From an uncultured Bacteroidia bacterium (GTDB lineage: Bacteria; Bacteroidota; Bacteroidia; Bacteroidales; UBA932), in the NCBI GenBank assembly GCA_902785785.1, contig CADAAA010000006.1:140427-204426 (forward strand): a DNA stretch of 64,000 nucleotides. Reading direction: 5' to 3'. This document shows, piece by piece, positions 61,898 through 64,000 of the stretch (its first letter is position 1; each line of letters begins with the position of its first letter). The position numbers were made by a program, and so were the translations under genes. Below the pieces are notes generated by a model. That model saw only the letters and a list, made by a program, of their open reading frames with translations, did no database searches and was not told the DNA's origin.

Positions 61898-61905
61898 TAT
61901 ATTTG
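61898..61905 (+). promoter_or_regulatory. tRNA-Leu promoter -7 box
   Basis: TATATTTG, 11 bases before the mature tRNA 5' end. Confidence 0.6.
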
Positions 61906-61916
61906 CCACGGAAAAT

Positions 61917-62226
61917 GCCCTGGTGGTGAAATGGTAGACACGAGGGACTTAAACTAATTGAGTGCGCTTTCCGAAAGGAGAGATGTAGAATGTCGTAAAT
62001 TCAAGGAAGCCTTAACGGGTAACGCCGATGGTAATCTTGAGCCAAGCCTCCCAAAGGAGGAAGGTGCAGAGACTAGACACGACACACCTAAAGATTGAAA
62101 TCCATGGTGAAGGAATAGTCCAGACCCCAAACAGGTGCGGTCTGCCGTCCTGATAGTGAAAACTATAGTGGTACGAAAATCCCTTGGGCCGAAAGGCCCG
62201 TGCGGGTTCGATTCCCGCCCGGGGCA
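61917..62226 (+). tRNA. tRNA-Leu(UAA), interrupted by a group I intron
   Basis: Exons 61917-61950 (34 nt) and 62176-62226 (51 nt) join to an 85-nt class II tRNA. The acceptor stem GCCCTGG/CCGGGGC (one U-G) and discriminator A are clear. So are the anticodon stem AGGGA/TCCCT with loop CTTAAAA (anticodon TAA), the long variable arm (GGGCC-GAAA-GGCCC) and the T arm GCGGG-TTCGATT-CCCGC. The intron lies between U34 and A35, as in cyanobacterial and plastid tRNA-Leu(UAA). CCA is not fully encoded (CCT follows). A tyrosine recombinase gene begins 150 bp downstream. Confidence 0.95.
61951..62175 (+). ncRNA. Group I intron (IC3-like) in tRNA-Leu(UAA)
   Basis: 225 nt with no ORF. P1 forms between the exon end ACTT (61947-61950) and intron GAGT (61960-61963), with the standard U-G at the splice site. 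The core segments match group IC3 introns of tRNA-Leu: P/Q as AATTCAAGGAAGCC with AATCTTGAGCCAAGCC (P4), R/S as GGTGCAGAGACTAGAC with GAATAGTCC (P7, G-binding site), and P9-like AGACC/GGTCT. The intron ends in G (62175) and the 3' exon starts AAAATCCC. It should self-splice; excision restores a normal tRNA-Leu. Confidence 0.93.
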
Positions 62227-62321: not shown

Positions 62322-62352
62322 TTGCTATTTCGGAAAATAGCTTGTATTTTTG
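62322..62352 (+). promoter_or_regulatory. Integrase promoter
   Basis: TTG at 62322-62324, 20 bases, then TATTTTTG at 62345-62352. It overlaps an alternative in-frame TTG start, which supports the later ATG for the integrase. Confidence 0.55.
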
Positions 62353-62353
62353 T

Positions 62354-62374
62354 CTTGTAAGAAAAATTTACAAG
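62354..62374. repeat. Palindromic operator-like site before the integrase gene
   Basis: CTTGTAA, seven bases, TTACAAG: a perfect 7-bp inverted repeat between the -7 box and the ATG. Placement over the transcription start suggests a repressor or self-regulation site. Confidence 0.4.
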
Positions 62375-62376
62375 CT

Positions 62377-63696
62377 ATGGCTGTAACCTTCTATCTCTTC
62401 ACGAGACCGGACAAGAAAGGCGACCATCCGATCTACACTTCCATTTATCTGAACGGGAGCAGGTTCTGCTCCAGCATCGGGTATAGCATCAGCCCGGAAA
62501 AGTGGGATGACGAAAAGATGAAAGTGAAGCATGGCGCGAGCAATGCCCGTAAAGTGCCTTTCAATACCATTAATTCCAGGATCGCAGCAATTTCGTCCAG
62601 GTTCGACACCCTTGAAGCGAATAACGCCAAGTTATCCAAGGAACAGATCAAGAAGCAGCTTGCAGAAGTGGTCGGTCGTGCAGCAAAAGAGTCGGACACA
62701 CCGGAGAAGTATGGCCCTGTCAATTTCTTCCACTATTTCGATGCTTTCATCCTTGATGGTAAGTTGAATCATAAGTGGGCGCTGAATACGGTCAAGAAGT
62801 GGGGGACACTCCGTGCTCATATGAAGAAATTCAACCCGGACATTACGCTGGATGACTTTGATAAGGAGACCCTCGATGCCTATGTCCGTTTCGGCGCGAC
62901 GGAAATCCATATGCTGGATGTCTCGATCAGGAAGGAATTGAGCCTTCTTCGCTGGTATCTCGGCTGGTGCGTTGACAAGGGATACACTACGAATCAGACC
63001 TTCTCCAAGTACCGGGCAAGATTGAAGGATACGAAAAAGCCTGTCATATTCCTTGAGAAAGATGAGCTCCTGAAGTTGTATGGTTTCAAGATTCCAAAGA
63101 ACGGGACAGAGGTGGTTCTCCATGATATGGATGGAGAGGAATACAGGAAAGTTGTTACGGAGAAAGCGTCCATGGACAAAGTCCGGGATCTGTTCTGCTT
63201 CTGCTGCTTCACTTCGTTACGCTACTCAGACCTTGCCCAGTTGCAAAGGACAAACATTCAGGACGGCTATATCCAATTGACCACGATCAAGACTGACGAC
63301 ACGGTCAATATCCCCCTCAATGAACAAGCCCAGGCAATCCTGAACAAGTACGCGGCCTTTGACTTCGACGGACTGGCCCTTCCTGTTATCAGTAATCAGA
63401 AAATGAACCAGTATCTCAAAGAAATCTGCGAGCTGTGCGAGTTCACAACACCTGTAACCATTGTCCAGTACATTGATGGAAAGAGAAAGGATATCTGTCA
63501 GCCGAAATGGAAACTGATGGCTACTCACGCCGCGAGGCGGACATTCATCTGTACCGCTCTGGCAGCAGGAATCCCTCCCCAGGTCATCATGAAAATGACC
63601 GGTCATTCTGACTACAAAGCAATGAAACCCTACATCGAGGTCGCGGAGAGAACCAAGGATGATGCAATGGTGAAGTTTGCCAACTTTCTTAAATAG
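62377..63696 (+). CDS. Tyrosine recombinase (integrase) of a Bacteroidales integrative element
   Basis: 439 residues from the ATG at 62377. N-terminal arm-binding domain (YSISPEKWDDEKMKVKHG) and SAM-like core-binding domain, then a catalytic domain with all key residues: Arg in FTSLRYSDLAQL (near 281), His and Arg in THAARRTFICTALAAG (near 383-388), His in MTGHSDYKA (near 411) and the nucleophilic Tyr in MKPYIEVAERT (near 421). Such integrases commonly use tRNA 3' ends as attachment sites, and tRNA-Leu is directly upstream. It marks the left end of an element running past the window. Confidence 0.93.
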   Translation: MAVTFYLFTRPDKKGDHPIYTSIYLNGSRFCSSIGYSISPEKWDDEKMKVKHGASNARKVPFNTINSRIAAISSRFDTLEANNAKLSKEQIKKQLAEVVGRAAKESDTPEKYGPVNFFHYFDAFILDGKLNHKWALNTVKKWGTLRAHMKKFNPDITLDDFDKETLDAYVRFGATEIHMLDVSIRKELSLLRWYLGWCVDKGYTTNQTFSKYRARLKDTKKPVIFLEKDELLKLYGFKIPKNGTEVVLHDMDGEEYRKVVTEKASMDKVRDLFCFCCFTSLRYSDLAQLQRTNIQDGYIQLTTIKTDDTVNIPLNEQAQAILNKYAAFDFDGLALPVISNQKMNQYLKEICELCEFTTPVTIVQYIDGKRKDICQPKWKLMATHAARRTFICTALAAGIPPQVIMKMTGHSDYKAMKPYIEVAERTKDDAMVKFANFLK

Positions 63697-63704
63697 AGCG
63701 AGCT

Positions 63705-64000
63705 ATGAATATACTTCTCATTATTGCCTATTCTCTCCTGGCGGTCCTCGCCGTGTGGGCAGCCTATTGGTTCTTTAAGGATCCAGGGCATTTCCTTCTC
63801 TTGGACAACAAATACAGGATGATGGTGAGAATCCGCGAATGTTATTTAAAGGGACAGAAGGCTCAGCCTCAGGACAGCGAAGATTACTTCCTGAGAAAGG
63901 CGACAAAGATCATCAACGACTATAAGCCAGTCTTCGGGCCGATTGAGATAAAGGCAGATCTCCGGTTCCACAAAGAGACCGTCACCAATATGCTTTCCAG
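63705..64000 (+). CDS. Small membrane protein of the integrated element, partial
   Basis: An open frame from ATG 63705 runs off the window after at least 98 residues, starting 8 bp after the integrase stop. Residues 3-24 form one hydrophobic helix (ILLIIAYSLLAVLAVWAAYW). The rest is a charged soluble part (YRMMVRIRECYLKGQ, then SEDYFLRKATKIINDYKPVF). Family not recognised. The overlap in codon use with the integrase and the tight spacing suggest an element-encoded gene. Confidence 0.6.
   Translation, partial: MNILLIIAYSLLAVLAVWAAYWFFKDPGHFLLLDNKYRMMVRIRECYLKGQKAQPQDSEDYFLRKATKIINDYKPVFGPIEIKADLRFHKETVTNMLS

Follow-up and report, generated by a model that had tools for sequence, protein, structure and literature searches.

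The tRNA-Leu(UAA) gene of an uncultured Bacteroidales bacterium is interrupted between U34 and A35 by a group I intron. We put at roughly 85% the probability that this intron is an ORF-less member of a mobile family that homes by means of an HNH endonuclease, loses the endonuclease by decay, and is then lost from its site and re-invades it. The intron lies in a stretch of 64,000 nucleotides that we analyzed as a whole and refer to as the window; its host is inferred to group with Ca. Cryptobacteroides. What is new is the family to which it belongs: introns of tRNA-Leu(UAA), probably mobile, that can carry an HNH gene and that come and go within a single gut genus, together with phage forms in which the ribozyme is contained within the endonuclease gene. 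A literature search at title and abstract level, covering few subscription journals, found no such description for tRNA-Leu introns of the Bacteroides type or of Cryptobacteroides, for trnL intron endonucleases or for phage tRNA introns.

A group I intron in the only tRNA-Leu(UAA) gene found in the assembly

An earlier note, made from the letters of the window alone, had proposed a group I intron at this site, and comparison with the Rfam model bore this out. The insert matched RF00028 over positions 61941-62137 with 50.4 bits (cmscan, E 3.1e-11), just above the gathering score of 50, and was the only such match in the whole 2.36 Mb assembly (completeness 96.18%); covariation across the genus, described below, supports the same assignment. 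Against our own genus covariance model the intron scores 208 bits, being a member by construction. With the exon boundaries at 61950/62176, the exons joined in silico give a normal tRNA-Leu(TAA) in ARAGORN, while the unspliced gene is missed by the program and, when introns are allowed, misnamed tRNA-Ser. Both core strings that the note had named are present (CTTGAGCCAAGCC at 62036-62048 and GGTGCAGAGACT at 62063-62074), as are the splice-site features, namely a U-G pair at the 5' site (CUU/AA, the slash marking the site, pairs with UUGAG) and a G at the 3' end of the intron. The intron is presumably of subgroup IC3. A tRNA scan of the assembly found 44 other tRNA genes, none with a UAA anticodon (Leu CAA, CAG, GAG and TAG are present). 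The features discussed here and below are as follows.

61898..61905, + strand: TATATTTG, a putative Bacteroidota-type -7 promoter motif (TAnnTTTG) 5' of the tRNA, read from the sequence
61917..61950, + strand: 5' exon of tRNA-Leu(UAA), ending at U34 (sequence reading; ARAGORN on joined exons)
61951..62175, + strand: group I intron, 225 nt, with terminal G (RF00028; covariation; own genus model)
61958..62095, + strand: 46 codons open in the frame that the relatives' HNH gene uses in the core, followed by a TGA stop at 62096-62098
61967-61972 with 61977-61982, + strand: P2 hairpin, with double-sided changes in 4 of 6 pairs
61991..61996, + strand: 5' strand of P3, pairing with 62079-62084; fully paired (100%), with double-sided changes in 2 of 6 pairs
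62001..62006, + strand: 5' strand of P4, pairing with 62035-62040; invariant in the genus, with a compensatory change in one phage (L309)
62009..62032, + strand: P5 and inner helix (62009-62011 with 62030-62032); one P5 pair is non-standard (A-C) in 16 of 29 genus cores
62041-62043 with 62063-62065, and 62047-62051 with 62056-62060, + strand: P6, invariant, and P6a, in which 5 of 5 pairs change on both sides
62071..62075, + strand: 5' strand of P7, GACTA, pairing with P7' TAGTC at 62116-62120; invariant
62085..62109, + strand: P8 and a short L8 (CACC 62085-62088 with GGTG 62106-62109), from the genus alignment
62116..62118, + strand: TAG inside P7', at which the endonuclease frame of a number of relatives ends; out of frame in the window
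62176..62226, + strand: 3' exon of tRNA-Leu(UAA), starting at A35 (sequence reading; ARAGORN on joined exons)
62350-63696: gene for a tyrosine integrase with Arm-DNA-bind_5 and Phage_int_SAM_5 domains, immediately downstream of the tRNA gene

We take TAnnTTTG to be the Bacteroidota -7 promoter motif, both for the window tRNA and for the intron L1 and phage genes discussed below.

In an alignment of 29 cores from the genus, 97.7% of cells were paired. Fifteen of 44 pairs changed on both sides, compared with a mean of 8.0 after shuffling, and none of 500 shuffles reached 15; when the partners were slid by 1-3 columns, paired cells fell to 34-45% and double-sided changes to 3-4 pairs. The number of further pair types, used as a control measure on the same 29 cores, showed no excess (26, against 26.4 when shuffled). 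Because P4, P6 and P7 are invariant in the genus, the covariation comes from P2, P3 and P6a together with the inner helices, and P8 contributes little. The window intron thus contains the P3-P8 and P4-P6 domains with a P7 pseudoknot, P4, P6 and P7 being without covariation support in the genus, and is a sound, ORF-less member of a known intron class.

Distribution across the genus, the order and the phylum

The genus covariance model (R1) matched 58 of 151 genus genomes, of which 46 hold a full intron of the window's type (type A), 3 a partial one and 9 diverged types. Flanking sequence places 57 of the 58 matches in tRNA-Leu(UAA); the other, in G009, is a fragment at a contig end. An intron-free UAA gene was matched in 63 of the 151, or about 61 once two matches judged false were set aside (G095, with a CAA anticodon, and G090, an intron start). 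At least one UAA allele, intron-bearing or free, was found in 117 of the 151 genomes, neither form in 34, and both in G047 and G081. Absences in these searches are uncertain, since filters were strict and few candidates were scored per genome (18 in the genus, 7 in the order and the phylum), and for the same reason counts outside the genus are lower bounds: 3 of 393 order genomes (the window's, one more with a tRNA-Leu(UAA) intron and one with an intron in a tRNA read as Ile(UAU)) and 29 of 395 phylum genomes, with introns in tRNA-Leu and, by flank reading, other tRNAs. In agreement with the earlier note, the intron is not a standard feature of Bacteroidales; nor is it clearly a frozen relic.

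A scan of named records returned at least 117 stretches, at least 99 of them of the window's type. Those of this type that were listed come from Bacteroidales, Bacteroidia or families within them, mostly as rumen or gut MAGs, with one titled only Bacterium. At least 18 of the listed stretches are not of this type and belong to Omnitrophota (12) and archaea (6); these group I introns (L169, L170, L172, L175, L200, L205, L212, L214, L258 and others) share the core string and, by eye, occupy another tRNA site.

Other tRNA genes are interrupted as well. In another family of the order, G405 has a related intron between U34 and A35 of an apparent tRNA-Ile(UAU) (L131), and other families of the phylum have group I introns in apparent Arg and initiator Met tRNA genes (L158-L160, L162-L167), with two matches each in seven genomes of this group. 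Two RF00028 matches in the genus were not counted as tRNA-Leu introns. G069 is intron-free, and its match of 24 bits, next to a tRNA, is spurious; the match in G087 is a second, different group I intron outside any tRNA (L120, about 1287-1567), with a nuclease-like frame upstream.

Rapid turnover with some inheritance

Intron presence turns over rapidly within the genus, with some inheritance. On a host tree built from rpsK, rpsD, rpoA and rplQ of 89 genomes (36 with type A, 6 with type B, 2 with type C and 45 intron-free), presence required at least 29 changes, 24 of them forced by supported branches; the shuffled mean was 30.1, and 200 of 500 shuffles were as low. Some hosts separated by as little as about 2-5% on the tree differed in presence (G005/G037, G051/G054, G110/G027). 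Type A alone did cluster (21 changes versus 28.3 shuffled, 0 of 500 as low), which makes some inheritance of window-type introns likely, and the four states together clustered too (29 versus 34.7, 7 of 200 as low). Since mis-binning of MAGs could inflate patchiness, we also considered the 57 genomes whose genes lie on contigs of at least about 20 kb, where 14 changes were needed versus 18.5 shuffled (6 of 200 as low). In the contig-restricted and core-tree tests G069 was set aside as a two-allele genome, though it is intron-free. Core and host distances were weakly correlated across 36 genomes (r 0.21, a value reached by 20 of 2000 permutations), and the cores of G074 and G005 differ by 2.2% while their hosts differ by 20.6%.

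Loci were also compared by their upstream genes. Intron-bearing and free alleles occur together in three of the upstream gene families defined on 71 loci (9 intron-bearing with 5 free, 7 with 1, and 6 with 3). A fourth family, that of the window, comprises 8 intron-bearing loci, its only free member being the second allele of G047; ORFs of both strands were used, and some of these are not real genes. In at least 6 of 11 compared pairs the alignment was limited to the tRNA and its edges within the examined flank of up to 600 nt, and orthology, judged from upstream genes, therefore holds for part of the set. Within these limits of binning and flanks, presence at this one site is patchy among close relatives. 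Of the two origins that the earlier note had offered, recurrent horizontal gain fits these data better than an ancient relic, with some clustering of window-type introns on the host tree.

HNH endonucleases in the P1 loop

The window intron has only 7 nt between its 5' splice site and the P1 guide strand, and no homing endonuclease. The description of it as ORF-less therefore holds, but relatives have a gene for an HNH endonuclease in L1, the loop of P1, so that this state is most likely a stage of a cycle. We classified 48 window-type introns of the genus with a readable core and 5' exon, the window's included. L1 is at least 450 nt long in 16 of them (an insert of about 520 nt), 14 with an intact HNH frame at one site. 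It is 30-449 nt long in 6, where 3 keep HNH remnants by pattern and L032 keeps the end of the gene by eye, and shorter than 30 nt in 26, the window's among them. The named introns (at least 93, overlapping the genus set) gave at least 23 with L1 of at least 450 nt, at least 14 intermediate and at least 56 short.

The encoded protein matches Pfam HNH_3 above cut-off in both cases tested, and HNH in one; it also matches PHROG 10822 (E 2.5e-44). A Bacteroidota-type promoter motif precedes the endonuclease start within L1 in 8 of 18 introns. Three of 7 type B introns have a related HNH gene at the same place despite their different cores. The simplest reading is an old association of intron and endonuclease with repeated decay. 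Across 36 hosts the endonuclease state shows a scattered pattern (11 changes, 9.5 when shuffled), and the poorly resolved core tree forces only 3 changes, so that it accommodates both loss and repeated gain of the endonuclease; these counts took L1 of at least 290 nt by an older pattern and include degraded genes (e.g., G018). On sequence evidence, the window intron most plausibly represents a homing cycle at its endonuclease-less stage, probably reached by loss.

In window-type introns the endonuclease frame continues in phase past the HNH region into the ribozyme core, commonly stopping in P6a or at the TAG of P7'. We rejected protein selection as the cause in bacteria: the core frame is open to P7' in 13 of 27 introns with an intact endonuclease and in 31 of 71 with a short L1 (p 0.82). 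A coding frame thus overlaps the ribozyme core in relatives and not in the window, where RNA conservation alone may explain the openness of the 46 codons. An apparent class of introns of about 504 nt, including the rows with L1=298 in the core-frame comparison, proved to be an artefact in which the 5' exon pattern had matched inside the endonuclease gene.

A proposed homing cycle and its alternatives

These data suggest a cycle in which the group I ribozyme would excise itself from the transcript of the sole tRNA-Leu(UAA) gene found, and an HNH endonuclease expressed from the P1 loop of armed introns would cut intron-free tRNA-Leu(UAA) genes at the anticodon. Repair of the cut gene would copy the intron in. 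After fixation the endonuclease gene would decay, leaving ORF-less introns like that of the window, which may later be lost and their sites re-invaded. Transfer from host to host could plausibly be mediated by phages that have a tRNA-Leu(UAA) gene with the same intron.

The patchiness could also have arisen if whole tRNA-Leu genes, intron included, were moved or replaced by integrative elements, with no homing into a resident gene. This explanation would account for the tyrosine integrase encoded 124 nt downstream of the window's tRNA, for its homologues adjoining tRNA-Leu in several relatives, and for the dissimilar flanks of at least 6 of 11 compared pairs. Both alleles nevertheless occur within three upstream-gene classes, and neither the window's own assembly nor the downstream sequence of nine short integrase-bearing stretches contained the second tRNA 3' end that would mark an attachment-site repeat. 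We therefore regard such replacement as unlikely. Somewhat less likely still is an ancient, vertically inherited intron with many losses, some copies of which were later invaded by endonucleases. The clustering of window-type introns on the host tree, the slight correlation of core and host distances and the related tRNA-Leu introns elsewhere in the phylum all speak for it, and G116, the nearest host relative of the window, is also intron-bearing and shares a small fork of the core tree with it. Against it stand the few matches in the rest of the order and the near-identical cores in distant hosts. In addition, introns of two core lineages, A and B, occupy the same site within a single genus, and HNH genes occur in the L1 of each lineage. 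That the window gene is a decayed, unspliced tRNA, with UUA read by a gene absent from the assembly, is very improbable. It could draw on the assembly being about 96% complete and on the rarity of UUA (ten window genes contain 4 TTA codons, including one in rpoA), yet the exons make a normal tRNA, the core is intact and covarying, and a UAA allele is found across most of the genus, with both kinds in two genomes. Homing with endonuclease decay and re-invasion remains the reading that we prefer.

The tRNA-Leu gene may be an integration hotspot. In other genus genomes, loci for this tRNA have integrases about 85-89% identical to that of the window, both with and without the intron (L052, L141, L051, L080). 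The contig ends at window position 64000.

The window intron shares its gene, its U34/A35 site and its kind of small ribozyme with the tRNA-Leu(UAA) introns of cyanobacteria and plastids, and differs from these classic trnL introns in that its close relatives carry an HNH endonuclease in L1. We know of no classic trnL intron with an endonuclease. In the parts of the literature available, recent gain or loss has been proposed for the cyanobacterial introns (PMC5733544), plastid ones are called immobile, and movement has so far been argued from distribution. The closest parallel in another tRNA is the Synechocystis tRNA-fMet intron, which has an endonuclease in P1 and a coding overlap with P1/P2 of 61 nt according to Table 1 of PMC3073962. 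The Goddard-Burt homing cycle is described for organellar introns in the accessible part of a review (PMC8393795); here, as there, empty, armed, intermediate and disarmed alleles coexist, in this case within one genus, but the target is a bacterial tRNA gene with no second UAA copy found. With all four kinds of allele in one genus and no second copy in the window genome, the homing cycle is directly testable.

Phage introns in which the ribozyme lies within the endonuclease gene

By eye, five distinct phage introns occupy tRNA-Leu(UAA) genes (L289, L291=L292, L294, L298 and L309; L296 is a partial copy), although in L298 the 3' exon is a poor fit and none of the split phage genes is called by ARAGORN. 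Each contains one frame of 277-287 codons (about 280) that begins with an HTH and HNH region in L1, crosses the core through P1'-P2-P3-P4-P5-P6-P7-P3'-P8, encodes a zinc/HTH region in L8 and ends at the TAG of P7'; it overlaps the core by 129-141 nt, plus the P8'/P7' end. The ribozyme is preserved nonetheless: P3, P4, P6 and P7 are fully paired in 9 of 9 sequences, five of them from phages, with compensatory changes in P3 and P4, and the P8 strands form four pairs in each of the nine by eye. A Bacteroidota-type promoter motif precedes the gene in 4 of the 5 phage versions.

Several lines of evidence suggest that this is one protein. In L289 a single PHROG 10822 match spans both protein parts (profile positions 4-243 of 245), and free-standing relatives align on both sides of the core-coded stretch, apart from one record that aligns on the N side only. 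Between the core and the zinc motif there is no ATG, GTG, TTG or CTG codon in the four phages tested, and an ATT in two. The four phage comparisons gave dN/dS of 0.11-0.21 for the L1 part and 0.10-0.38 for the L8 part, as against 0.20, 0.92, 1.03 and 1.44 for the core, where dS was 0.13-0.29 versus 0.33-2.09 in the flanks. The flanks thus appear to evolve as protein and the core as RNA. An AlphaFold2 model of one phage protein, used only to tell domain from disorder (mean pLDDT 68.6, pTM 0.31), had pLDDT below 50 at residues 150-205 (the core-coded part), 56-67 and 1-3, and on this basis the core-coded linker is predicted to be disordered. A structure search gave no convincing PDB relative (best E 0.015, a McrA-type HNH), and the core-coded peptide had no match in annotated phages and plasmids.

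PHROG 10822 proteins are found near tRNA-Leu in Klebsiella phage KP13-7 and Salmonella phage Munch, with the same N-terminal HTH/HNH and C-terminal zinc/HTH regions; they are free-standing, and their linker, of similar length, is by eye unlike the core-coded peptide. We think it probable, though less so than the homing cycle itself, that the phage core is a translated, in-frame part of the endonuclease, that its lastingly open frame and built-in stop may have been exploited repeatedly, and that the window intron is what remains after loss of both protein parts.

The nearest published phenomenon is 'core creep' (Edgell et al. 2011, PMC3073962), in which, as far as the available part of that paper goes, ORF ends creep into the core, by at most 81 nt in Table 1. 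As there, an endonuclease frame enters the ribozyme and stops in it, over a length that varies between cases. In the phage tRNA-Leu introns, however, a conserved domain follows the core, so that the core lies inside the protein and is not merely overrun by its end. The Synechocystis tRNA-fMet case of the same table also differs, in its tRNA, its PD-(D/E)XK nuclease and its shorter overlap. The phage forms extend published core creep. They also bear on the statement, in the accessible text of a 2014 review (PMC3984707), that phage introns were then known in protein-coding genes only; a 2025 paper on phage introns, likewise available in part, mentions overlap of conserved elements with nuclease genes. 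In these forms one stretch of sequence would serve as both RNA enzyme and protein linker, with an essential RNA helix supplying the stop codon, and such a dual-use core bears on how an endonuclease and a ribozyme become one mobile element.

The core frame in other phage introns

A wider scan gave 53 viral stretches which, with 14 found earlier, yielded 44 distinct cores. Frames that cross the core motif, with at least 10 codons before it and at least 60 after, lie in the same frame in 15 cases, in the second in 1 and in the third in none; the ribozyme itself closes the third frame, through a TAG in P7, and part of this bias is thus imposed by the RNA sequence. Seven of the 15 same-frame cases are endonuclease VII genes by sequence likeness (L423, L431, L432, L437, L445, L450, L466), and all three tested match PF02945 above cut-off. 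In these genes a short initial part lies in the core and the nuclease follows in L8, and the P7' TAG ends 5 of 7; translation could begin at a later start codon in them, so that threading of the frame through the core is firm only for the tRNA-Leu phage introns. Between six of them, compared pairwise, pooled pS was 0.125 in the core and 0.765 in L8. Their flanks look like what we take to be a capsid gene.

A few further viral introns carry HNH-like genes. In L299, L454 and L295, the last of which is cut by a contig end, the gene is in L8 and its frame is open back through the core; all three introns apparently interrupt a DNA polymerase gene. The protein of L299 (3508-4017) matches HNH_3 above cut-off, in a gene that is DNA-polymerase-like by eye; L454 resembles it, with no Pfam family matched. 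In viral L297 an HNH-like frame is read through the core to the P7' TAG.
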